Part shown: positions 8,475 through 20,887 of the stretch, piece by piece
Layout: each line of letters starts with the position of its first letter
Position numbering within the stretch: the stretch's first letter is position 1
Source of the DNA: Silvibacterium acidisoli
Lineage (GTDB): Bacteria; Acidobacteriota; Terriglobia; Terriglobales; Acidobacteriaceae
NCBI GenBank assembly: GCA_022870745.1
Contig: CP085323.1
Location: forward strand, 5,022,001 to 5,086,000
DNA length: 64,000 nt
Direction of reading: 5' to 3'
Program-made: the position numbers and the translations under genes
Notes under the pieces: model-generated
Told to the model about the DNA's origin: nothing
The model's input: the letters and a program-made list of their open reading frames with translations, nothing else
The model's database searches: none

Positions 8475-8539
8475 AGACTTCGCTCCTGTTCAGGCCGGAC
8501 GCTCTTTTCTTGAAGCGCGTTCGTCCACCTTGCTATGCC

Positions 8540-8570
8540 GGAATAAACACAGCCGCCGCGTGTCTATTCC
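8540..8570. promoter_or_regulatory. T6SS dyad site 1 (tssB/tssK1 gap)
   Basis: GGAATAA at 8540-8546 and CTATTCC at 8564-8570 form a 7-bp inverted repeat with one mismatch and a 17-base spacer. The same element occurs at 10892-10921 and 20942-20972, always between divergent genes or upstream of a T6SS transcription unit. It could be the operator of a dimeric regulator. Alternatively it could be overlapping divergent promoters with an ECF-like -35 element. Confidence 0.65.
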
Positions 8571-8677
8571 CATGTGCGGCAATTTTCTGCTCTGGAGCTC
8601 ACGATTTCCGCCAGAGGCGCACAATCACGAAGCAAATAGCTTCGAACATTGCCCGAATAAATGCGAGGAGTATCAGG

Positions 8678-10030
8678 ATGCGGCATCTTCAATCTGTCGT
8701 CTGGTCGAAAGGCGTCTTTCTCACACCACACCATCTGCAGGCTCAGGATCATTTTTTTGAAGAGTCGCTTCACTTTGTCTTGAATTCGCTATCGTTCTGC
8801 GCATGGGGATTCAGTAGCATTGCTCTCGACATCACGGCTGTGGGTGAGGGCCGGCTGCAAATAGGCGAGATGCAAGGTGTGTTTCCAGACGGCCTGGCTT
8901 TCGATACCGCAGCCACAGATGTCCCGCCGGAATCCCGTGTTCTCGATGAATGCTTTGCTGATGGTCAGCGCGCCTGCACCTTTTATTTGGCGGTCCCACA
9001 ACACCGTCATGGTGGCACCAACGTCTCCACGCAGCGCAACGGGCCAACGACCCGTTTTCGTTCTGAGATCAGAATGATGAGGGATGAGAACAACCCACAA
9101 AACGAAAAGCCTGTAGCGCTCGCCCGAAAGAACTTTGGAATACTCACCGAAAGCGAGACTCACGATGGCATGATAGTCATGCCCATAGCGCGTGTAATCC
9201 GCACTGAGGCCTCAACCTACACCGTCGATCGCGACTTCATTGCGCCGGTATTGAATCTGCGTGCGAGCGAACGGCTTCAAGGCATGCTTCGCGGGCTGAT
9301 TGAAGTTCTTTCCTCAAGAAGCTCACAAATCTCAGCCGGGCGTCGGCAGCGTAATTATTCTCTGGCAGACTTTAGTGCTTCTGACGTCGCCAACTTTTGG
9401 CTGCTGTATACAATGAACACGCGTCTGCCAGTGCTGCAGGAGTTTTTCAGGGCCACACAAATCCATCCTGCGACGCTGTACACAGAGATGTTGTCTCTCG
9501 CTGGAGCGCTCACCACGTTTTCGCAGTCAGCAAAGCCACTTGACTTCCCACGTTACGAACACGATGACCTCGGCAGCTGCTTCCTGGAGCTGGTCTCGCA
9601 GATCTTCTCTCTTCTCAACACCGTTATTCCGAGCCGCTTTCTCGCCCTTCCTCTCAGGAGCACCAGCGACTCTGTTCACACTACCGATATCGATAAGGAT
9701 GAATATCTTAACGGAGCTGCTTATCTTGCCGTAGCCGCCGACATTCCAGCAGTAGAACTGATCGAACGCGCTCCGGCCCTGCTTAAAGCCTGCTCCGCCA
9801 CACATCTCGAAACCCTCATACGCCAGGCGCTGCCGGGAGTGCCGCTAACGCATATGCCAGCACCTCCGCAAGCCATTCCAGTGAAGCTCAACTACCAGTA
9901 TTTTCGGCTCGACAAAGCAGGAACAGCGTGGGAATCCGTAAAGCGCTCGCGCAACTTTGGGGTGTACGTGCCGAGGGAAATAGCAAATGCTGCGATGGAG
10001 CTGATCCTCGTGCCTTCCGAAGCAAAGTAA
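8678..10030 (+). CDS. tssK: TssK paralogue 1, baseplate-to-membrane-complex connector
   Basis: A 450-residue TssK/ImpJ/VasE protein. TssK trimers connect the baseplate wedges to the TssL/TssM membrane complex. The N-terminus VVWSKGVFLTPHHLQAQDHF is the classical shoulder-domain signature, and the C-terminal GVYVPREIANAAMELILV end is typical. I chose the ATG at 8678 because GAGGAG lies eight bases upstream and the protein then begins like other TssK. It is transcribed away from tssB and followed by a convergent gene 16 bp downstream. A second TssK lies at 10989. The two are clearly homologous but quite different in sequence, and only this copy stands apart from tssL-tssM. Confidence 0.93.
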   Translation: MRHLQSVVWSKGVFLTPHHLQAQDHFFEESLHFVLNSLSFCAWGFSSIALDITAVGEGRLQIGEMQGVFPDGLAFDTAATDVPPESRVLDECFADGQRACTFYLAVPQHRHGGTNVSTQRNGPTTRFRSEIRMMRDENNPQNEKPVALARKNFGILTESETHDGMIVMPIARVIRTEASTYTVDRDFIAPVLNLRASERLQGMLRGLIEVLSSRSSQISAGRRQRNYSLADFSASDVANFWLLYTMNTRLPVLQEFFRATQIHPATLYTEMLSLAGALTTFSQSAKPLDFPRYEHDDLGSCFLELVSQIFSLLNTVIPSRFLALPLRSTSDSVHTTDIDKDEYLNGAAYLAVAADIPAVELIERAPALLKACSATHLETLIRQALPGVPLTHMPAPPQAIPVKLNYQYFRLDKAGTAWESVKRSRNFGVYVPREIANAAMELILVPSEAK

Positions 10031-10046: not shown

Positions 10047-10853
10047 CTAGTGCCGCGCGAGCAGGACAGTCACAAGAATCAGCACCATGGCCGTGAGTAA
10101 GAGATTTGCAGTCACCAGCACATGGACATATCTCTGCATCTTGTCCTCTCCCGACCCAGTCGACTGCTTCGGAACAGTTACGGGCGTTGCAGGTGGCAAA
10201 GGCTGCGCATATGTTTGGGGCTGCGGAAGGCCTTGCAGCGGCGCCGCTGACTGAGACGGAGTGTCGACCGCTCTCGGCTGCGCCGGAAGATTTTCCTCCA
10301 CGGGCCTGAGTGGCTCGCGCATACTGGCCTCGCGTATCGCAGACCTTGAGATGATCCGGGTGAACTCCCCTGGCCCACTGGGCGGCGGCGTCGAGAGCGG
10401 TGGAACCGGGGCGTCGGAAGAGAAGGTGGCTGGCTCTTCGCTCGAAAGCGTACGCAGCAGCTGCGTAAAACCACTGTCCATCGGAGACTGGCGCGGCGCT
10501 CTCGCATTCTGCTGAGGGGTATTCATACTCTGGCTCTCCTGCTTCGGCTCTGCCGGCAGCGGCTGAAACATGCGGGTGAAGTCGCCCGGACCGGGTACCT
10601 GGTTCCACGCCACTTCTTCCTCACCACGCTCGTTCGATACCTCTGATCCAGAACGGCCGTCCTGAGCTGGCTGAAAGAATTGGGTAAATCCCCGGTCATC
10701 GACCGCCTTCTGATGCTTCTGCCTTTGCTCATCGTTTAGAGTTCGCCCGACGGGCACCTGGCGAAAAATGCCGCTCATATCCGATTGAGAGGGCGCGGAA
10801 TCTGACGGCCGCGCAGGCATTATTCGCTTCGCCACTTCTTCCCGATCATCCAT
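10047..10853 (-). CDS. Unrecognised tail-anchored protein with repeated GxFT[RQ] motifs
   Basis: I do not recognise a named family. The 268-residue protein is polar, rich in Pro, Ser and Gln, and probably disordered up to residue ~238. One hydrophobic helix at about 244-266 is followed by only ARH, so it should be C-tail anchored with its bulk in the cytoplasm. A short motif recurs: RGFTQFF (54-60), GDFTRMF (90-96), SGFTQLL (127-133), GEFTRII (162-168) and a weaker SGIFRQV (27-33). The gene lies on the strand opposite both flanking tssK genes, 16 bp from the end of tssK1, with its own dyad-bearing upstream region. The position suggests a T6SS accessory role, perhaps linking multiple partner copies to the inner membrane. 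That is inference. Confidence 0.72.
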   Translation of the reverse strand: MDDREEVAKRIMPARPSDSAPSQSDMSGIFRQVPVGRTLNDEQRQKHQKAVDDRGFTQFFQPAQDGRSGSEVSNERGEEEVAWNQVPGPGDFTRMFQPLPAEPKQESQSMNTPQQNARAPRQSPMDSGFTQLLRTLSSEEPATFSSDAPVPPLSTPPPSGPGEFTRIISRSAIREASMREPLRPVEENLPAQPRAVDTPSQSAAPLQGLPQPQTYAQPLPPATPVTVPKQSTGSGEDKMQRYVHVLVTANLLLTAMVLILVTVLLARH

Positions 10854-10891
10854 CTTCTTTCTCCTCTTCCCTTACGTGCTCTTCGATATGA

Positions 10892-10921
10892 GGAATAAAA
10901 CGCGGCGCGTGTGGTTATTCC
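10892..10921. promoter_or_regulatory. T6SS dyad site 2 (tail-anchored gene/tssK2 gap)
   Basis: A perfect inverted repeat, AGGAATAA (from 10891) and TTATTCCT (to 10922), with GGAATAA 10892-10898, TTATTCC 10915-10921 and a 16-base spacer. It lies 38 bp from the start of the tail-anchored gene and 67 bp from the tssK2 ATG, so one site can serve both directions. It is the best copy of the three. Confidence 0.72.
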
Positions 10922-10988
10922 TTCGGCGGCATGAATTCATTAGTTTTACGTATCTCACGCCGCTCTTACTCACACGATCGAGTTGATA

Positions 10989-12344
10989 ATGAAACTTCTT
11001 TCGCGCGTTGTCTGGTCTGAGGGGATGTATCTCGCCCCGCATCACTTTCAGACCCAGAGCCGCTACTTCGAAGATTCCATCGCGTTCCTCGCCTCGAGCC
11101 TGTGGCGAGAGCCCTGGGGCGTTCTGCAACTGCAGATGGATATAGAGAGCATTGCCAACGGCATCGTCGCTGTTCAGCATGCTGCAGGCATGTTCCCCGA
11201 TGGTCTGCAGTTCGATATGCCTGGAGCGGATGCGCTGCCTGAAACCCGCACACTTTCATCGCTGGCAGAACCCTCCGAGGCGGAAGTAGTCCTTCACCTT
11301 GCAATCTCAAGTCGAACGAGTGAGGGCAACCAACCCACGCTTGAAGGAAAGCGTGCGGGCACGCGCCACTTCGCGAGAAACGTAATCCTGCGAGATGAAA
11401 CCAACGGCATCGACGAGCAGCAGGTGGCAATGGCCGGGAAAAATATACGTATCGCTTCCACCCGGGAACTAGCCGACAATGAGCTCTCTCTGCCGATAGC
11501 CCGCCTTGTTCGCGATGCAAATCGCGGTTTTGTTTACGATGCGGACTTTGTGCCTTGCCTGCTGCGCACCAGCGCCAGTGAGACTCTGATTCTTGAGATC
11601 AACCGTCTGATCGAGGTTATCGCTGAAAAGAGTGCAACCCTGGCTCGCCCCTTACAAGCGCAAGGAGAGCTACAGTCGGGCAACCTTCCTTTGGACATCG
11701 CGAACTACTGGTTCCTTCACGCTTTACACAGCAGCGTGCCTGTGTTGCGCCACCTCGTCCAACATCGCCATGCGCATCCGTCCGAATGCTTTCTCGAGCT
11801 CTCAAGACTGGCCGGAGCTCTGTGCACGTTTGCTCTCGATTCCGATCCAAGAACCTTGCCCCCTTATGACCACAACGATCCCGGTCCCGCGTTCCGGCTG
11901 CTCTTTGCGCACATTTACCGGCACCTTGAGATCGTCGTCCCGACGAACACTGTCGAACTCGTCTTTCACGCCAGGAGTCCGTATCTCCATAGCGCGGAGG
12001 TTGCAGACGAACGCTGTTTAAGGCGCGCCCGCTGGATACTCGGCATTCGATCTTCACTTGGGGAATCCGAGCAGCTCAGGCTGGTACCGCGGCTCGTCAA
12101 AGTCTGCTCCTCCCGGTTTGTAGAAGAGCTCGTAAAGCGGGCTTTACCTGGAATGCGGCTTACGCATCTGCCAGTGCCTCCTGCCGCTATCCGCGCAACA
12201 GCCGACATGCAATACTACGCGATCGACACGGCAGGACCATGCTGGCAGCACATTCAGCAATCGCGATCGGTTGGCATTTACATTCCCGGCGAAATCGCTG
12301 ATCCCCACTTCACCTTGACCGTAATCTCTGAGCGTACGTCATGA
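10989..12344 (+). CDS. tssK: TssK paralogue 2, linked to tssL-tssM
   Basis: A 451-residue TssK with the N-terminal signature VVWSEGMYLAPHHFQTQSRY and a C-terminal GIYIPGEIADPHFTLTVI. Matched segments with the first copy include ANYWFLHALHSSVPVL (first copy: ANFWLLYTMNTRLPVL) and LTHLPVPPAAI (first copy: LTHMPAPPQAI). Both copies are full length with no broken reading frame. The ATG at 10989 aligns with the start of the other TssK; a TTG two codons upstream is possible, and the ribosome site is weak (GAG). The stop overlaps the tssL start (ATGA), so this copy is translationally tied to the membrane-complex genes. Confidence 0.93.
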   Translation: MKLLSRVVWSEGMYLAPHHFQTQSRYFEDSIAFLASSLWREPWGVLQLQMDIESIANGIVAVQHAAGMFPDGLQFDMPGADALPETRTLSSLAEPSEAEVVLHLAISSRTSEGNQPTLEGKRAGTRHFARNVILRDETNGIDEQQVAMAGKNIRIASTRELADNELSLPIARLVRDANRGFVYDADFVPCLLRTSASETLILEINRLIEVIAEKSATLARPLQAQGELQSGNLPLDIANYWFLHALHSSVPVLRHLVQHRHAHPSECFLELSRLAGALCTFALDSDPRTLPPYDHNDPGPAFRLLFAHIYRHLEIVVPTNTVELVFHARSPYLHSAEVADERCLRRARWILGIRSSLGESEQLRLVPRLVKVCSSRFVEELVKRALPGMRLTHLPVPPAAIRATADMQYYAIDTAGPCWQHIQQSRSVGIYIPGEIADPHFTLTVISERTS

Positions 12345-13030
12345 CTATCGATCGCAGCAGCAGCCTTGCTTCCGTATTCCAGGAAGTCCTCACGGCAATC
12401 GTTCGTGTGCGCTTCCGCTCACAATCTGTCGCAGATGCCCCGAACTTTCGCCGCCAGATCCGCCAGTTGCTTCAGGCGCCGATGCGTGACGCCCGTGATC
12501 TGGGATACGACAACCAGAAAATACAGGGATCTGTCTTCGCTGTGGTCGCCCTGCTCGATGAAAGCATCCTGAACCTGCAGGATCCTGCTTTCGCAGAGTG
12601 GGCGAGGCAGCCTCTACAGGAGGAACTCTTTGGAGGCCATCTCGCTGGAGAGACTTTCTTTCGAAATCTTCGCAGCTATCTCTCTGAGCAGGACTCGCAA
12701 CAACTTGCGGATGTACTCGAGCTACATTGCCTCTGTCTTCTTCTCGGGTATCGCGGCCGCTATGCGCTTGGCGATAGCGGAGAGCTCTATTCGTTGCTTC
12801 GCCAGTCACGAGCCCGCATCGAACGCATCCGCGGCCACGCAACACTCGGCTTGAAAAATGCGAACTCTCAACCTTCCGCCGTTCCTCAGCGCAGCGATTC
12901 CATGACCCGCTCCCTGTTGTGGTCGACCTTAGCTCTGGCTGGAGTGATGATGATTGCCTATTGTCTCTATTATCTTCTTCTCGCCTCGGGCGCAGCGGCA
13001 ATCCACAACGCCGTCGCCGGCACCCTCTAG
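12341..13030 (+). CDS. tssL: TssL/DotU, type VI inner-membrane complex protein
   Basis: A 229-residue TssL (DotU/ImpK/VasF). Its cytoplasmic hook domain contacts TssK and TssE, and a single C-terminal helix anchors it next to TssM. The family pattern is visible: VVALLDESILN, then QPLQEELFGGHLAGETFF, then ELHCLCLLLGYRGRYAL. The membrane helix lies at about residues 190-215. There is no OmpA-like peptidoglycan-binding extension, so cell-wall anchoring must come from another protein if it exists. Overlaps tssK2 by four bases (ATGA). Confidence 0.95.
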   Translation: MTIDRSSSLASVFQEVLTAIVRVRFRSQSVADAPNFRRQIRQLLQAPMRDARDLGYDNQKIQGSVFAVVALLDESILNLQDPAFAEWARQPLQEELFGGHLAGETFFRNLRSYLSEQDSQQLADVLELHCLCLLLGYRGRYALGDSGELYSLLRQSRARIERIRGHATLGLKNANSQPSAVPQRSDSMTRSLLWSTLALAGVMMIAYCLYYLLLASGAAAIHNAVAGTL

Positions 13031-13038
13031 GAGGCCCA

Positions 13039-16000
13039 TTGAAATCCTATCTACTGCCAGCAGCATTTCTCCTGCTCTCCATAGTTTTTGGAATCTTTGC
13101 CGGGACCATCTTCCATCTCAGCGGATCGCCGCTGCTATTTCTTCGTGTTGCGCTCGTGCTGATGGGCGCGGCTGCTGCGTTTCTTCTCTATCGCTTCTCA
13201 CCTAGAAGAAGCCAGATAGGTGCAGCTCCCGCAACATCCGGGCCAGAACCAGAGCGGCAGATCCTGCTGCGCGCCGCATCGCAACGCCTGCGCAGTGCCC
13301 AGCGGCCGGGAGTGAACACGCTGTCATCCATGCCGATGCTCTACGTTCTTGGCGCACCGAACAGCGGGAAAACAACAACTATCAGCAAGTGCGGTATGGA
13401 GCCAGACTTGCTCGCAGGGCAGGTGTATCAGGACGGAGTCGTCGTTGCCACGAAGCAGATGAACCTCTGGTACGCCGATGGAAACATTTTTCTGGATGCG
13501 GGCGAATCGTTGTCGCGTGACGCATCGGCATGGAGCGCTCTGATAAGAGATACAAGTCCAGGATTGATCGCTTCAATGACACATCGACTCAGGCCACTTC
13601 GAGCTGCAGTCGTTTGCATCAGCAGCGAAGCCTTCTTTGGACCGGGTTCGGATGAGAGGCTCACCGAGCTCGCACGAGAAACCAACGCGGCACTTCGCGT
13701 CATGACTCGACAGTTGGGAGCTGATCTACCCGTCCACGTTGTTCTCACCAAGACCGATCGCATCGTCGGATTTGCAGAATATGTCCAGCACCTGACCCAT
13801 GAAGAGGCCTGCGAAAGGATGGGGGTCGATTTCCCCATGGAGAATCAGGCAGGCGGTGTATACGCAGATCGGACTGCGGCCATGGTTTCCTCATCTCTCG
13901 ACTGTCTCTTCTTTTCACTCGGCGAGTTTCGCCTCGAGATACTCGGACGCGAAACACAGTCTCCTGGTGTCGCAGGCATCTATCAGTTCCCGCGGGAACT
14001 TCAAAAGCTTCGAGGCCGCCTCACTAACTACATGGTCGAGCTCACTCGCCCAAGCCAACTCAACGCCAGTCCTGCGTTGCGAAGCTTTTCTTTGGTAGGT
14101 GTGCGCGCACGACTGTACGAGAAAGCCGTGATGGTTCCCGCAGAATCGCAAAGCGCTACCTTTGCCGACTCCGACGCGACGGGCATCTTCTCACTGCGGC
14201 AGGCACAAGGCATTGAACAGCCGGTCCGTGCGGGCGCCACGCGAACAACTGCACAGTGGTGTTTCCTTCCAAAGCTCTTTTCTGGAGTGTTCCTCAGTAA
14301 GGACGAACAGCAACACGCAGCGGCCGCAAGCCCACGCGTACGCCTGCTGCGCCGCGCCGCCCTTGCCGCCGCAGCTTCCGTAGCCTTGCTATGGACCATA
14401 GGTCTCACGGTTTCGTACTTCAATAACGCATCGCTTGAGAGAAACATCCGCGAGGCAGCAAAATTGCTGCCTCCTGACGGAGCTACCGTCGACCTCGCAA
14501 ACCTGCAACAGCTTGCCGACCTCGACCGGCTCCGCATCGCTCTGATTCAGCTACGTGAGTTTGACCGCGATGGCGCACCCTGGCGCTACCGTTGGGGCCT
14601 GTATCGCGGACACGCCCTGCTCGAATCCACTCGTGATCTTTATTTCCAGCGCTTTCGCTGGGTGCTGCTGGATTCCACCCAGTCACGGATACGCACCTCG
14701 TTAAGCTCTCTGCCGGCAACGGCTCCGGCCTCTGCAGACTATCTCGCTGCCTACAATCCGCTTCGCGCTTATCTGATCACAACCAGCTATCCTCAATTCA
14801 GCTCCGGGGACTTTCTGGAAAATGTATTGACTCCGGCCTGGGCGGCAGGCCGCCTCTCATCCGAAGATCAAAGAGCTCAGCTCGCGTCCGAACAGTTCCA
14901 TTTCTTCGGCGACGAACTTCGCATTGAATCTGTCTACAACATCGCTCCCAGTACAACAGCGGTTAAGGGCGGTCGAGCGTATCTCAACAGCTTTGGCAGC
15001 TTCGACCGGGTGTACCAGAACATGCTTGCCGCTGCTGAACGCAGTTCCCCGGCGATCGACTTCAACCGCCTCTATCCAGGTTCGTCTGCGACTGTGGTGG
15101 AAAGCCACATAGTTCCGGGCGCGTTCTCTCGTAAAGGATTTTCTTTTATGGAAGCCGCTATCAGGAATCCTGAGCGCTTTTTCACAGGAGAACCGTGGGT
15201 GCTCGGCGACCAGACGCAGCAGTCGAGTTCGGCGAATGACCTTACTCCAAAGCTCACATCTCGCTACAACGCTGACTTCAGCTCACAATGGGTGAACTAC
15301 CTGCACTCTGCCTCCGTTGTGCGCTTTCACGGACTTTCGGACGCAGGTCAAAAGCTCGGCAAACTTTCTTCGCCTAGCTCCGCACTGCTTGCACTTATCT
15401 TCACCGCCTCGCAGAATACTTCAGTCTCAGAGGCGCCCATCGCGCATCAGTTTCAGCCGACACAGGCACTGGTGCCACCCAATCTGGTTTCCCGCCTTAT
15501 CGCACCCTCAAACTCCGCGTACATCAATGGGTTGGTCTCTCTGCAGGGAGCAGTATCACAGCTTGCGCAGGATCCGACCGCTGCAGGTAATCCAGCCTCC
15601 GCTCAGGGTGTAATCTCTGCAGCCGCGAACGCTCATGGAGCAGTCAGTCAGACCTCGCAGTCCTTTGATGTCGATCCGCAGGCCCACGTTGAACAACTTG
15701 TCACGAAACTCCTGCAGGAGCCCATCGACTCCGTGGAGGAAGCTGTAAGAGGCGCCGCACCCGCGGAGATCAATGCAGCAGGACGGCAGTTCTGCACCGC
15801 CGCTGCTCCTGTCATGTCCAAGTATCCCCTCGACCGCACCTCAAACGTTGAGGCCACACCGGCTGAGATCGCCGCCATACTGCAGCCTGGCACAGGAGCG
15901 TTGTGGCAGTTCTACCTCAACAGCCTGAAACCTGTGATCGTTCAGCAGGGATCACAATGGGTAGCATCGCCAGGCGCCGCAGTTAAGCCAACGCCGCAGT

Positions 16001-16461
16001 TTCTGGCAATGTTCAATCGTCTCGCCGGATTCTCAACCAAACTCTTCCCAGCAGAGGCAACTGCTCCCGAGCTGCAATTTAATGCACACATCCTCCGCTC
16101 GCCAGACATCGAAAGCGTGACTTTGCAGGTAGATGGCCAAAAGGCGTCGGGCGCTGATGTGACACACGCCTTCCACTGGTCCTCACAGTCTGCCCAGCAG
16201 GCCCAGCTGATTGCCAGTTACGGCACGAATAATCTCCCTCTCCAGTTCAACGGACCCTGGGCGCTCTTTCATCTTGTCGACCGGGGACACGTCGAGCAGT
16301 CTTCAAATCCCTTACGGCTTTCCTATCCGCTGCAGATTTCGGGTACGCCGATCATGGTGAATGGCACTGCACTGACCGAACGCATCGAGCTCTCCGGTGC
16401 TGACATTCTCAACCCGGATGCCCGTACAGGCTTGCGCTGCACCGCGCAGGTTGCCAGGTAA
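13039..16461 (+). CDS. tssM: TssM/IcmF, type VI inner-membrane complex ATPase-like protein (TTG start)
   Basis: An IcmF/VasK protein of about 1140 residues, the large periplasm-spanning part of the T6SS membrane complex. Two N-terminal hydrophobic segments (about 5-25 and 32-52) precede a cytoplasmic domain with a Walker A motif, GAPNSGKT (about 105-112). A third helix (about 440-462) leads to the large periplasmic part. I place the start at the TTG at 13039 because AGGAGG lies four bases upstream and the first membrane segment follows at once. It starts eight bases after tssL and ends before a strong hairpin. A TssJ lipoprotein partner is not seen nearby. Confidence 0.94.
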   Translation: MKSYLLPAAFLLLSIVFGIFAGTIFHLSGSPLLFLRVALVLMGAAAAFLLYRFSPRRSQIGAAPATSGPEPERQILLRAASQRLRSAQRPGVNTLSSMPMLYVLGAPNSGKTTTISKCGMEPDLLAGQVYQDGVVVATKQMNLWYADGNIFLDAGESLSRDASAWSALIRDTSPGLIASMTHRLRPLRAAVVCISSEAFFGPGSDERLTELARETNAALRVMTRQLGADLPVHVVLTKTDRIVGFAEYVQHLTHEEACERMGVDFPMENQAGGVYADRTAAMVSSSLDCLFFSLGEFRLEILGRETQSPGVAGIYQFPRELQKLRGRLTNYMVELTRPSQLNASPALRSFSLVGVRARLYEKAVMVPAESQSATFADSDATGIFSLRQAQGIEQPVRAGATRTTAQWCFLPKLFSGVFLSKDEQQHAAAASPRVRLLRRAALAAAASVALLWTIGLTVSYFNNASLERNIREAAKLLPPDGATVDLANLQQLADLDRLRIALIQLREFDRDGAPWRYRWGLYRGHALLESTRDLYFQRFRWVLLDSTQSRIRTSLSSLPATAPASADYLAAYNPLRAYLITTSYPQFSSGDFLENVLTPAWAAGRLSSEDQRAQLASEQFHFFGDELRIESVYNIAPSTTAVKGGRAYLNSFGSFDRVYQNMLAAAERSSPAIDFNRLYPGSSATVVESHIVPGAFSRKGFSFMEAAIRNPERFFTGEPWVLGDQTQQSSSANDLTPKLTSRYNADFSSQWVNYLHSASVVRFHGLSDAGQKLGKLSSPSSALLALIFTASQNTSVSEAPIAHQFQPTQALVPPNLVSRLIAPSNSAYINGLVSLQGAVSQLAQDPTAAGNPASAQGVISAAANAHGAVSQTSQSFDVDPQAHVEQLVTKLLQEPIDSVEEAVRGAAPAEINAAGRQFCTAAAPVMSKYPLDRTSNVEATPAEIAAILQPGTGALWQFYLNSLKPVIVQQGSQWVASPGAAVKPTPQFLAMFNRLAGFSTKLFPAEATAPELQFNAHILRSPDIESVTLQVDGQKASGADVTHAFHWSSQSAQQAQLIASYGTNNLPLQFNGPWALFHLVDRGHVEQSSNPLRLSYPLQISGTPIMVNGTALTERIELSGADILNPDARTGLRCTAQVAR

Positions 16462-16472
16462 CCATAAACGAC

Positions 16473-16499
16473 AGAGCCCTCCGTAAACCGGAGGGCTCT
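16473..16499. terminator. Bidirectional terminator between tssM and the PP2C gene
   Basis: AGAGCCCTCCG and CGGAGGGCTCT pair perfectly around a short loop between two convergent genes. The U-run is short on the plus side (TTCT), so efficiency is uncertain, but the position and GC-rich stem fit an intrinsic terminator serving both directions. Confidence 0.8.
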
Positions 16500-16521
16500 T
16501 CTACCATCGATGTCTTTCAGA

Positions 16522-17286
16522 TTAGTGAATAAGAATCACCATGCAGGTTACGTTATCAACTGCCCCGCCGCTGTGCGCAATCGCGAGCAAAGCACGGCAG
16601 GCCTCTTCCGCTGAATCGAATGCCTGCACCGTATCACTGATCTGAGCTTCATCCACGTAGCGCGTGAGTCCATCTGTTGCCAGAAGAATCGCGTCGCCCG
16701 AACGTATCTCGGCAGTATAGTAGTCGGGCTGCACATGACTTTCCGCGCCAATCGCTCTAGTGATGTATTGGGCAACTGCCGCCGGAATCTGCTCTGCTGA
16801 CAAACTATGAGCATCGCGCGTTCGTTCCGCTGCGACGGAGTGATCTTCAGTGATTTGCGTACATGCATTGCCGCGCAAAAAATAGCCCCGGCTGTCGCCG
16901 ACATTGCCAATTACAATCCGCTGATCGTTGAAGCAGGCCGCCACCAGCGTGGTACCCATGCCCCTGAGGGCCGGCGTCTTGCTGGCCTCGTGCCAGACCG
17001 TTTCGTTCGCAGCTTCAATCGCAGTGTGCAGGCGTTCTTCAACCGGCAGATTTGAGGAGCTCAATGATTCATACACCTCAATGGCCTGCTCGACCGCAAG
17101 GCTGCTGGCAACCTCTCCACCAGCCATACCGCCCATTCCATCGCAGACTATAAAGAGGCCTAAGCCAAGGTCGTAACCGAAACAGTCTTCGTTGTTGCCA
17201 CGTCTGTGTCCAATATCGGAAACAGCTGCGACTTCAAGCTTCATCGGAGCGTTACCTGTACCCTCATCATGATGGATCTGGTTCAT
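16522..17286 (-). CDS. pppA: PppA-like PP2C-family protein phosphatase
   Basis: A 254-residue PPM/PP2C Ser/Thr phosphatase. Metal-binding and catalytic motifs are intact: SDIGHRRGNNEDCFG near the N-terminus, VCDGMGGMAGGEVAS, IGNVGDSRGY, ATDGLTRYV and DNVTCMV near the C-terminus. It is cytoplasmic with no membrane segment. The ATG at 17286 overlaps the upstream stop (ATGA); a second ATG at 17244 is a plausible alternative. Together with the PpkA-like kinase two genes upstream it matches the threonine-phosphorylation switch that controls some T6SSs, where PppA reverses PpkA. The usual substrate, an FHA-domain protein, is not in the window. Confidence 0.88.
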   Translation of the reverse strand: MNQIHHDEGTGNAPMKLEVAAVSDIGHRRGNNEDCFGYDLGLGLFIVCDGMGGMAGGEVASSLAVEQAIEVYESLSSSNLPVEERLHTAIEAANETVWHEASKTPALRGMGTTLVAACFNDQRIVIGNVGDSRGYFLRGNACTQITEDHSVAAERTRDAHSLSAEQIPAAVAQYITRAIGAESHVQPDYYTAEIRSGDAILLATDGLTRYVDEAQISDTVQAFDSAEEACRALLAIAHSGGAVDNVTCMVILIH

Positions 17287-18518
17287 TGCGCGGCGCCAGT
17301 CTGTGACCACTGATCAAGAATTCTCGGCGACACTGCAGCTTCCAGCGGCTGGAAATTCAGCTTCCGCGCTTCTTCGAATTGCTTGCGGGCCTGCTGTTGC
17401 AGATCATCGATGTGTGGCGCATCTTTCGGATCCGCGAGCAACTGTTGCGCAGTCAAAGCAGCGCCCAGGTAAAAGTGTGCGGCGCCTGCGTGAATTCTGC
17501 CGCCTCTCGAGAGGTAAGCGTTCAGGCTTTCATCCGCCTCGATATACTGCGAGGCGTAAAACTGGGTGACACCGTCATCGAGCAATGCCTCGAGTGCTTT
17601 CGGATCATTCATCGGCTTGGAAAGAGCCCGTTTGCGTCCGGCAAGCGCCGTCGCCTGCGCCGGATCGATCGCCAATACCGCCGTATACGCCTTCACCGCC
17701 CCGGCAGTGTCCCCTCTTGCCTCGTCTTTGCTGCCAGCTGCAAGCAAAGATTGAATCTTTGCATCATTAGCCGCCTTCAATGCTGCGGCCTGCGCATTCG
17801 CCTGCTGCTGTGCGGCCTGCTCACCGGCGGCGATCTGCGCCTGGGCCTGCTTCAACTGCCCTTGTGGATCTCCCGGCCCGGACGGCAGTATCTGCATCGC
17901 AAACTGCAGTTGCTGCATAGCACCGGTCCAGTTGTGCTGCCCCATCAATAGACCAGCCTGCTGCATCGTCTGGCGATAAACGCGAATATTGGTTTGCATC
18001 TGGGTCTTTGCCGACTGCAAAGAAGACACTGTGACGAACTTCAGCCAGGATTCCGCCTCTTCCAGCTTCCCTCCGCTGTAGAAGAAGGAGGCCAGCCGCA
18101 TTGCCGTATGACTGAGCTCATCGTCAGTACCCATGTGCCCGAGCACACGCATCTGAGGTAGAAAAGCCTGGGCAGCTTCGTGGCGAGGCCCCGAAGTGAT
18201 CTTGCTGAAGTCTCGAATCGCCCCGGGGAAATCTCTGTGCTGCGCTTCCGACACCGCCTGATTGTAGTCGGCCTCGAACTGGGCCATAGCTTTCGCAAGA
18301 CTATCTTTAGCCTTGTCGCATCGCTTCGCATACTTAGGATTGATTCCGGCGGCGCGACAGATGTCCTCTGCTTCTTTTTGGAGATCCCCTGCATCGTGGG
18401 CTTGCCGGGCAGCGTCCATGAGCTGTTCCGCTCCCGCACCGCCACTCGGTTGCTGGGCCTCAGCAGCGGCCACAAAAACCGCCACTATCAACATTGCTCT
18501 CCACATACCCACCCTCAT
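17283..18518 (-). CDS. Exported TPR-like repeat protein of the T6SS kinase operon
   Basis: 411 residues with a probable Sec signal peptide (residues 1-22, cleavage near AAAEA/QQ). The mature part is helical and rich in Ala and Gln with TPR-like units, for example GDTAGAVKAYTAVLAIDPAQ near residue 275, and a Q/A-rich coiled stretch at about 225-255. I do not recognise a named family. Starts and stops overlap its neighbours by four bases on both sides (ATGA), so kinase, TPR protein and phosphatase are one translational unit. A periplasmic sensor or scaffold that feeds the kinase is a reasonable guess because the kinase has a periplasmic C-terminal domain. This is inference. Confidence 0.78.
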   Translation of the reverse strand: MRVGMWRAMLIVAVFVAAAEAQQPSGGAGAEQLMDAARQAHDAGDLQKEAEDICRAAGINPKYAKRCDKAKDSLAKAMAQFEADYNQAVSEAQHRDFPGAIRDFSKITSGPRHEAAQAFLPQMRVLGHMGTDDELSHTAMRLASFFYSGGKLEEAESWLKFVTVSSLQSAKTQMQTNIRVYRQTMQQAGLLMGQHNWTGAMQQLQFAMQILPSGPGDPQGQLKQAQAQIAAGEQAAQQQANAQAAALKAANDAKIQSLLAAGSKDEARGDTAGAVKAYTAVLAIDPAQATALAGRKRALSKPMNDPKALEALLDDGVTQFYASQYIEADESLNAYLSRGGRIHAGAAHFYLGAALTAQQLLADPKDAPHIDDLQQQARKQFEEARKLNFQPLEAAVSPRILDQWSQTGAAQ

Positions 18519-20887
18519 GGATGCTCCCCATTCACCAGCGTCTGCACATCTGGCGTTCCGAGATCAGCTGTGCACAAGTGTTGCTGCTCCGTCACAGAAC
18601 ATTGCACCGCTTTTTCCTGGTGGTTAAACTCGCTCCGAAGATTGACCGTGTAGACCCCTGTCTTCACTCCCTCCATGCGCAGCGGTGTAGGTGCATCTGC
18701 CGACGGGAGCGGAACCATTTGCCCCTTCGCGTCTGCGATCGAAACTACGGTGGCCCATGGCGAAGCATCGATCTCAAAATCAACTCGCGGTGCCGGTGCA
18801 ACGGGTGTCACCGGTGATTTGGTCGTCGTCGCAACAGGCTTGACCGGGGGCAACGGTGCCGAAGGTTTGGGCCGATGGGAGATAGATAACAGTACCGATC
18901 CCGCTATCAGGACGCAGACGAACACTCCAGCCACTACTGCAATAAGCTTGAACCGGCTCCCGATACCCCCCGGCTTCTTCTTCACCGCAGGCAACTGTTT
19001 TGCAGGTGCCGGCCCAGTGGGCTTTGGCGCTGCCTTCGCACCGGAGTTGACTGGCTTTTCGGCTACAACCTGCTTTTCGGGTTGGTGTCGCAGTACAAGA
19101 TCCCGCGCTTGCAGCAGGATGGGACTATCAGGCAATTGAGCCAACCCGCGATTGATCACTTCCATCGCTCGTTCCGGTTCATCTGCAAGCAATTCCTGGG
19201 ACCGCAGCACGACTTCCCGTGCCATATCTGACTGTTCGCGTTCCCTCTTCCTTCGCGAAAGCTCCTCCTGGAGTCTCGTCAGCACAGGCTCTTCGGGCAG
19301 CGTTTCAAAAGCACGACGAAGCCGGTCATCCGCTTGCGCGTAGTCTTCCCGGTCAAGAGATTCCTGAATCTCCAGGGCCAGCTTATCCAGTAGCTGTTGC
19401 CGCCTGTCTTCTTTCTGTCGGGTGGTCACGGTAAAGAGTAGTTCCTGCACGCCGGGATGAGCCGGATCGATCTCTGTGGCTTCCCGCAACCGCGCGATCG
19501 CCTCCGTGTAACTGCGCATCGTATAGCTTTCTCGCGCGCCGCGAAGCAATTCCTCTACTTTTGCTGTTTCCTGTTTACGGCGAAGCTCGCGCGCGACGAC
19601 GGAGTAGGCGTTGCGGAGATCGGTGCTGCGTGTGTCAATGCGAAGAGCTTCACTCAGAAGCTCTTCGGCTCCGGTTAGATCGCCCCTGCGGCGGGCGTCG
19701 CTTGCCCGCTCCCAAAGCGCAATCAGTTTCTGCTGCTGTTCTTTCTGCTCGAGAACTTCCGTTATCCTACGGCCCACATCGTAAGCGTTTTCAGTATCCA
19801 GCCCCTGAGCCTGCTCTAAAAGCAAGATCGCTTCTTCCCAGTGTTTCTTCTCAGCGGCGCTTTGCGCCTGCTCTACCAGTTGCAGTAGCTGCTCACTGCG
19901 TTGCAACTCATTCATACGATCCTGTACTTCGATCGCAAGGGCCTTTGCTTCGGTATTACGCGGGTCGATGCGCTGTGCCTGTAACAGCACAGAACGAGCG
20001 TTGACGTACTCACGCTCATCAGCAAGGTTCCTCGCCGATTGCAGCAGAGCGCTGACACGTTCCCCCTTCAGGTCATCCGCAATCGCCTGAAGGTCAAAAG
20101 CCATTTCTTCAGCAGCGGCATAGCGATCCTGTACCTGTTTGGCCAAAGCGCGATCAAGAACCTCGATCAGTCCGGGCGGCAGGTCCTGCACGTACTCATG
20201 CAGAGGTACGTAAGGCTCGTTGATCACGCGATACAGAGACGAGACATCCTTGCCTTTAAACGGCAATTCGCCCGAGAGCATCTCGTAAAGCATCACTCCC
20301 ACTGACCAGACATCGGCGCGACCATCGCTGATCTCACCCTTCAGTCGCTCCGGAGCGATGTAGTGAAACGTACCCAGCAGTGCGTCAGGCTGTGTGAGCT
20401 TACTCGTCTGATCGGCCAGGCGAGCGATACCGAAGTCAACAATCGTCACGCGTCCATCTGGACGAACAAGAACATTTGCCGGCTTTACATCCCTGTGTAC
20501 GACACCGTGGCCATGCGCATAGCCAAGCCCTGCGCACAGCTGTTCGACTATCAGCAATGATTCGAGTAACGGTATACGCTTGCGCGCACGCAGCATGCGC
20601 TCGAGTGATTCACCGTTGACAAGCTCCATGGCAATAAAGGGGCTTTCCTCGTGTTCGCCGAGCTCATAGACAGTAACGATGTTGGGATGACTGAGTATTC
20701 CCGACCGGGCTTCCAGGTAGAAACGGTCGCGCAGTTCCGGGGTCACCTCTGTCAGCGTCTTAATGGCGACCTCGCGCCCAATCTGGCGGTCCTCACCTCG
20801 ATACACCACCCCCATGCCGCCACGACCCAGCTCCCCGCGAATCACGTAACGACCAATAAGCTTCGGATCGCTCATGGCACTCTGCAT
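18515..20887 (-). CDS. ppkA: PpkA-like membrane Ser/Thr protein kinase with TPR region
   Basis: A 790-residue Hanks-type kinase. The kinase domain (about 10-270) has the glycine loop GELGRGGMGVVY, the VAIK lysine, HRDVKPANV in the catalytic loop, DFG (IVDFGIARL) and APE (YIAPERL), all intact. A long TPR/coiled-coil region (about 290-600) follows. A single membrane helix at about 645-668 leads to a small periplasmic domain (about 670-790) with a PEGA-like beta pattern (DASPWATVVSIADAKG). The topology fits PknB/PpkA kinases that read the periplasm. It heads the kinase-TPR-phosphatase operon, with the third GGAATAA dyad 55 bp upstream. The first ATG (20887) sits too close to GAGAGGA; the ATG at 20875 is an alternative. 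Confidence 0.9.
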   Translation of the reverse strand: MQSAMSDPKLIGRYVIRGELGRGGMGVVYRGEDRQIGREVAIKTLTEVTPELRDRFYLEARSGILSHPNIVTVYELGEHEESPFIAMELVNGESLERMLRARKRIPLLESLLIVEQLCAGLGYAHGHGVVHRDVKPANVLVRPDGRVTIVDFGIARLADQTSKLTQPDALLGTFHYIAPERLKGEISDGRADVWSVGVMLYEMLSGELPFKGKDVSSLYRVINEPYVPLHEYVQDLPPGLIEVLDRALAKQVQDRYAAAEEMAFDLQAIADDLKGERVSALLQSARNLADEREYVNARSVLLQAQRIDPRNTEAKALAIEVQDRMNELQRSEQLLQLVEQAQSAAEKKHWEEAILLLEQAQGLDTENAYDVGRRITEVLEQKEQQQKLIALWERASDARRRGDLTGAEELLSEALRIDTRSTDLRNAYSVVARELRRKQETAKVEELLRGARESYTMRSYTEAIARLREATEIDPAHPGVQELLFTVTTRQKEDRRQQLLDKLALEIQESLDREDYAQADDRLRRAFETLPEEPVLTRLQEELSRRKREREQSDMAREVVLRSQELLADEPERAMEVINRGLAQLPDSPILLQARDLVLRHQPEKQVVAEKPVNSGAKAAPKPTGPAPAKQLPAVKKKPGGIGSRFKLIAVVAGVFVCVLIAGSVLLSISHRPKPSAPLPPVKPVATTTKSPVTPVAPAPRVDFEIDASPWATVVSIADAKGQMVPLPSADAPTPLRMEGVKTGVYTVNLRSEFNHQEKAVQCSVTEQQHLCTADLGTPDVQTLVNGEHP

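Follow-up and report, generated by a model that had tools for sequence, protein, structure and literature searches.

In Acidovorax, the type VI secretion system (T6SS) kinase PpkA, which bears a transmembrane (TM) segment, forms condensates that recruit TssW, TssJ, TssL, and Fha. Deletion of the TM segment abolishes both foci and T6SS assembly, and the catalytic residues of PpkA are needed for T6SS function (PMC12607579). The subject of this report is a 268-residue protein, encoded from an ATG start at positions 10047–10853 (minus strand) of a 64,000-nucleotide stretch of the Silvibacterium acidisoli genome (contig CP085323.1, positions 5,022,001 to 5,086,000). This stretch is referred to as the window. 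The protein lies between two tssK genes of a T6SS locus, carries a repeated Thr-centered motif, ends in a membrane anchor, and is called the repeat protein below.

The repeat protein resembles PpkA in its TM segment, its T6SS linkage, its presumed scaffold role, and a kinase N-lobe-like fold found in half of the homologues. It differs from PpkA in the absence of a C-lobe, a β3 lysine, and a periplasmic domain, in the presence of a row of PGEFTxxF motifs, and in the separate true kinase that is often encoded nearby. Catalysis is presumably absent from the repeat protein because it has neither a C-lobe nor a β3 lysine. The proposed gathering of T6SS parts and the connection to Thr phosphorylation are shared with Fha/TagH; the repeat protein, however, has no FHA domain, is membrane-anchored, and would supply Thr sites rather than read them. 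Like Agrobacterium TssL, which is phosphorylated at Thr14, it is a membrane-bound T6SS protein with a Thr site in a presumably cytoplasmic part, but TssL contains one such site with Glu at +3, whereas the repeat protein is a separate protein with a row of sites and Phe at +3. Short hydrophobic motifs repeated along flexible segments are also found in the TssG feet. Those are LG repeats of a baseplate protein with no fixed Thr, and binding of the repeat protein to TssK is putative.

The domains that define these families were sought in the window protein and ten relatives. No FHA domain was found (relatives searched at E 1), no Pfam kinase domain was matched, and no DotU domain (PF09850) appeared above the cut-off; one relative gave a PF09850 match at E 0.19 over its C-terminal residues 672–723 only, below the cut-off. 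A separate tssL (PF09850) is present in the window locus. Because a defining feature of each was sought and not found, the repeat protein does not belong to PpkA, Fha, or TssL; a new family of T6SS accessory scaffolds, derived from kinases, is proposed instead. No description of such a protein was found among the literature matches listed, judged by title and start of abstract in open-licence papers, and the string GEFTRMF was not found in papers of that kind.

The translation of the open reading frame (ORF) contains four clear copies and one weak copy of a Phe-centered motif, as an earlier note on this DNA had described. The clear copies are RGFTQFF (residues 54–60; 10674–10694), GDFTRMF (residues 90–96; 10566–10586), SGFTQLL (residues 127–133; 10455–10475), and GEFTRII (residues 162–168; 10350–10370), all on the minus strand, with Thr-to-Thr distances of 36, 37, and 35 residues. 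In the third copy F129, T130, L132, and L133 are invariant in 11 sequences, as are G162, E163, F164, and T165 of the fourth, which is followed by SRSAIREAS. The weak copy, SGIFRQV (residues 27–33; 10755–10775, minus strand), was located by alignment with the DLTGIF[RK]QV of the closest relatives and has Ser in place of their Thr. The GxFT[RQ] form given in the earlier note holds in part: all four clear copies read xFT[QR], but strict GxFT fits two of them, the remaining two being RGFT and SGFT. When the window protein was shuffled, two strict G.FT..[FYLIM] copies appeared in 3 of 200,000 shuffles.

The AlphaFold2 model of the window protein, built from the 11-sequence alignment, has a mean predicted local distance difference test score (pLDDT) of 53.9 and a single confident element, the helix at residues 236–267. 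Low confidence elsewhere in the model is consistent with disorder, and the proposal that a disordered region leads into a C-terminal membrane helix agrees with this result. The C-terminal helix and membrane anchor occupy residues 236–268 (10050–10148, minus strand; block pLDDT 91–97). A Pfam search at E 0.001 and an NCBIfam search at E 0.1 gave no match for the protein. No credible paralogue was found in the window genome, where the second match (E 0.84) is interrupted by stops.

Relatives were first recognized in an Edaphobacter genome and in an Acidobacteriales metagenome-assembled genome, in both cases between tssK genes and on the opposite strand. Among 100 related genomes, nine have two tssK matches above 400 bits, the window genome included, and motif proteins adjoin tssK in seven of the eight others. 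The exception is G092, where about 0.3 Mb separates the tssK genes and the motif cluster, with four matches, is far from both. An FHA-DUF4123 fusion is located directly upstream of tssK1 in G092 (L058:6687-7931). A sample selected independently of the protein was provided by 29 stretches (L091–L119) around same-contig tssK pairs among the matches listed, with previously examined pairs (e.g., G084) uncounted. A repeated-motif protein is present in 24 of these 29 stretches, which were picked solely by a close tssK pair. The five negatives are four loci of family f7 (L093, L094, L107, and L111) and L095, from a genome (G646) in which three motif matches cluster on a different contig. Stretches chosen by a single tssK (L120–L130) were positive in 7 of 11 cases. 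The negatives were L120, L125, L126, and L129, and the genome of L125 has two motif matches 180 bases apart at about 17 kb from tssK, beyond the stretch.

The orientation is constant. Where a stretch has two tssK-matching ORFs together with the repeat protein, as 36 do, the latter is always antiparallel to tssK2. It was flagged as lying between the pair in 31 of them; four more (L092, L103, L104, and L118) miss this flag solely through stop-to-stop ORFs that overlap tssK2 upstream, and in L113 the protein adjoins tssK2 on its outer side. Two tssK-matching ORFs without a repeat protein were found in seven stretches, namely, the five negatives of the 29 together with L125 and L129. A C-terminal hydrophobic segment is present in 43 of 43 sequences tested, with the truncated L061 left out; L061, which is cut at its C-terminus, and L026 are probably one gene of G007 split across contigs. 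The proteins are Pro/Ala-rich, and the stop-to-stop length of sequences uncut by contig ends varies from 245 to 1017 residues. The C-terminal part of one relative (L105) weakly matches an NCBIfam IgA-binding protein, far below the cut-off. A second common motif, approximately [LY][ST]xxGxW[KRE][VI]P, is found toward the N-terminal side of the repeat-bearing arm in L057, L092, L098, L103, L108, L110, and L116.

A control was run on 399 genomes of the bacterial class, of which 103 were positive for tssK at E 1e-60. The form G-[ADEGV]-F-T-[RQH]-x-F was sought as a degenerate DNA pattern, with a criterion of at least two same-strand matches; that both scans covered the same genomes was assumed from the genome labels (123 listed for the tssK scan). 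The criterion selected 57 of the 103 strong-tssK genomes and 3 of the 296 others (Fisher 1.5e-36). Genomes among the 296 may carry weaker tssK genes, such cases having been seen among relatives. In the three exceptions without a strong tssK (G189, G052, and G410) the matches are spread over different contigs or separated by hundreds of kilobases. Because these exceptions are scattered single matches, the DNA pattern gives no clustered case without a strong tssK. The pattern misses GSF and GTF forms, and the window genome itself gets one match; the 46 of 103 genomes below two matches are thus not to be read as negative for the protein. The idea that acidobacterial proteins often contain GEFTRMF was discarded when its exact DNA form was found in 0 of 297 genomes of the phylum, a draw that included few tssK-positive genomes (at least G000, G265, and G340). 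Taken with the 24 of 29 tssK-pair stretches, the genome counts bear out the proposal of a T6SS-linked component. Almost all homologues accompany two-tssK T6SS genes rather than lying away from T6SS loci, and the motif is strongly conserved among them.

The consensus of 299 copies of xFT followed by two hydrophobic residues, from 44 sequences, is P-G-E-F-T-[RQ]-[ML]-F-Q. There are up to 13 copies per protein, often 30–50 residues apart. In 43 sequences selected by the motif itself, with the window protein and a type III-linked homologue included, 241 strict copies were counted; 200 shuffles gave 0.83 copies on average and never more than 4. Since the sequences were motif-selected, the Thr statistics carry more weight than the copy counts. 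When hydrophobic residues are required at +2 and +3, the Thr position is occupied by T in 214 copies, A in 1, and S in 0. At +3 after GxFT, F occurs in 185 copies, L in 28, M in 15, and I in 10. A helix N-cap would accept Ser; its absence from the full-form copies suggests either a reader or enzyme specific for Thr or burial of the methyl group.

A mutually alignable N-terminal region of about 95 residues, resembling an isolated kinase N-lobe, is present in 22 of the 44 sequences; the 22 were selected by eye, and the N-lobe of L060 is cut after β3. Aligned by hhalign to kinase N-lobes from loci of this type, the region gave a probability of 87.3% (E 3.8e-6). The AlphaFold2 model (pLDDT 87.6) has the order β1-β2-β3-αC-β4-β5-αD. 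Each of the 50 rows listed by a Foldseek search of the PDB is a protein kinase with probability 1.00 (TMq 0.48–0.61, best E 1.1e-3), and the VIA Z scores are 9.2–9.9 (e.g., 9.6 for 2wel_A, with a root-mean-square deviation of 2.4 over 81 residues). The β3 Lys column is occupied by His in 20 of the 22 sequences and by Tyr in 2, and no C-lobe follows downstream. A profile search of the PDB placed two designed repeat proteins on top through summed weak repeats, ahead of PknA (E 0.004), and was set aside for hhalign, AlphaFold2, Foldseek, and VIA. The window protein and its closest orthologues have no N-lobe but keep the motifs, so an N-lobe within the chain itself is not the partner of the motifs. 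Descent from a membrane Ser/Thr kinase is probable, as is loss of the N-lobe in the window lineage.

These results are best accommodated, at close to an even balance of probability, if the repeat protein is a kinase-descended, tail-anchored, multivalent accessory component of the two-TssK T6SS that acts as a scaffold in the manner of PpkA and Fha. The C-terminus would be held in the membrane, presumably the inner membrane with the N-terminus cytoplasmic, and a long disordered arm would bear the near-identical PGEFT[RQ][ML]F docking motifs. At the membrane complex, the array may collect a T6SS or regulatory partner in several copies, and multivalent recruitment of this type is judged somewhat more probable than not. 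The motif Thr could be phosphorylated by a kinase such as that of the locus and reset by the PP2C phosphatase, which would make the valency tunable; slightly less than an even chance is given to phosphorylation. At Mycobacterium PknA-dependent Thr sites, hydrophobic residues at +3 (Leu and Val) are enriched (PMC7164672), a preference that the repeat motif fits in part. Catalysis would have shifted to a separate kinase and left the anchored arm as a scaffold. A wider proposal is speculative and on balance doubtful: a membrane kinase that shed its catalytic lobe and amplified a Thr-centered sticker would have become an assembly organizer widespread in one class, used in T6SSs and once in a type III-like system, with condensate valency set by phosphorylation and a reader other than FHA.

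The type III-linked homologue, of 245 residues, occurs in a genome of the same genus as the window (G006), together with a kinase, a TPR protein, and a PP2C phosphatase, and this arrangement is one case. The cassette adjoins matches to YscJ, FliH, and an ATPase N-domain, and its kinase is 64% identical to the window kinase over the BLAST match. No T6SS gene, TssK included, was matched in the 20-kb stretch. Thr is retained at all four repeat positions of the homologue, and the flanking Phe positions vary. Its search against 250 family genomes gave four matches, namely, G006 itself and three T6SS-linked proteins, the window protein among them. The cassette and type III-like cluster are located at L024:8974-19899, and the stretch also encodes a second C-terminally anchored protein (14796–15953) and a protein whose match to the kinase profile is confined to the C-lobe part (16049–17014).

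Several observations weigh against the proposed scaffold. Relatives of the window kinase or PP2C phosphatase were found in 13 of 24 positive stretches and also in 3 of 5 negative ones (L093, L094, and L095). The kinase/PP2C context therefore says little, being as common in negative stretches, and the kinase link falls mainly on the type III-linked case. Two-tssK loci of family f7 have no repeat protein between the tssK genes. As the sequences were chosen with the motif, its statistics are partly circular; so is the result that no two-motif ORF occurs among the other 4782 ORFs, since any such ORF that matched no T6SS reference was transferred to the motif set. When nothing is required after GxF, the next residue is T in 231 copies, S in 7, G in 7, and A in 5, besides at least seven others, and in degenerate copies of the form D[LIM]x[SNG][VLI]F it is T in 6, A in 3, and S in 2; Thr is thus dispensable in some copies. 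No Foldseek match to the N-lobe model falls below E 0.001. In eight relatives with an N-lobe no Pfam kinase domain was found even at E 1, so that the relation to kinases is remote. Because PpkA needs its catalytic residues in Acidovorax, a noncatalytic scaffold has no exact precedent in that system.

One alternative is docking of unphosphorylated repeats to TssK, in which the [ML]F residues would enter the N-terminal cavities meant for the TssG feet and gather TssK trimers at the membrane. The repeat protein adjoins tssK2 in most loci, the cavities of TssK accept hydrophobic motifs of varied sequence (PMC8406304), and the pocket signature is retained in most sequences of both TssK paralogues, its general form fitting 42 of 49 TssK1 ORFs and 42 of 47 TssK2 ORFs. 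A hydrophobic pocket, however, does not explain 214 Thr against 0 Ser, and the f7 loci have two tssK genes without the repeat protein. TssK as the sole partner is further weakened because the type III-linked stretch has no TssK. This alternative is considered rather unlikely.

Docking of FHA proteins is the textbook reading of a phosphothreonine array, and the phosphorylated repeats would then act as phospho-TssL does with Fha in Agrobacterium. Fha binds phospho-TssL at DLPpTVVEI (PMC3953482). In the repeat proteins Ser hardly ever replaces Thr, a kinase or phosphatase is often near, and FHA domains are found at E 1e-6 in 34 of 37 strong-tssK genomes. As a universal mechanism, FHA docking is ruled out by three carriers of the repeat protein (G631, G539, and G670; 98–100% complete) in which no FHA domain was matched at a cut-off as loose as E 1. 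By coordinates, FHA and tssK are no more than about 30 kb apart in only 5 of the 37 genomes, three of which are from family f7 and have no repeat protein at the locus; short contigs may hide others. FHA docking is improbable, and since it fails as a general rule, the scaffold similar to PpkA and Fha is favored.

A comparably small probability is assigned to a decoy function, in which pseudosubstrate repeats would tie up the T6SS kinase and keep the system inactive until it is required. TagF represses the T6SS elsewhere (PMC5995506). The up to 13 substrate-like sites with a hydrophobic +3 residue, as at PknA-dependent Thr sites (PMC7164672), and the kinase-like N-lobe would suit such a sponge, but an antagonist signature is absent and the head-to-head arrangement with tssK2 would suggest coexpression with the machine. 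A chance low-complexity membrane protein with no T6SS function would account for the Pro/Ala-rich composition and the variable lengths but is very unlikely, given that motif, anchor, orientation, and linkage are conserved across many genera.

The scaffold assignment bears on where and when cells build the T6SS, and the presence of one motif up to 13 times on a membrane tether makes it directly testable. If the kinase descent is true, an enzyme was turned into a scaffold, and forms that keep and lack the N-lobe coexist in living genomes. An accessory part with no Pfam or NCBIfam family would be missed by family-based annotation.

The T6SS locus of the window contains tssG, tssF, tssE, tssA, hcp, tssC, tssB, tssK1, tssK2, tssL, and tssM, followed by genes for a PP2C phosphatase, a TPR-like protein, and a kinase. 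The position of the repeat protein (10853–10047, minus strand) between tssK1 (8510–10030; PF05936, E 7e-134) and tssK2 (10983–12344; PF05936, E 3e-121), both on the plus strand, is as the earlier note reported. The genes for tssL (DotU; 12341–13030, PF09850) and tssM (IcmF; 12919–16461, profile match, start uncertain) follow on the plus strand. On the minus strand are the PP2C phosphatase (16522–17310; PF00481), the TPR-like protein of the kinase cassette (17283–18518; PF13414 at E 6e-4, below the curated cut-off), and the Ser/Thr protein kinase with TPR-like repeats (18515–20887; PF00069, E 8e-50). In the divergent intergenic region between the repeat protein and tssK2, an 8-bp inverted repeat, AGGAATAA/TTATTCCT, is located at 10891–10898 and 10915–10922. 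The dyad of the shared promoter suggested earlier is thus present, but no sigma-70-type promoter match was found in this gap; a dyad-bearing promoter common to the repeat protein and tssK2 is plausible.

In the f7 loci L107 (9281–10888) and L111 (3606–5204), a methyltransferase-like gene lies between tssK1 and tssK2 (Pfam search of L107), and the ORF between the tssK genes of L093 is putatively STAS-like. The two TssK paralogues differ in their most frequent N-terminal signature, WSKGTFL..QHL for TssK1 and WSEGMYL..HHF for TssK2. This difference suggests a wedge that may contain two different TssK trimers, one for each TssG foot.
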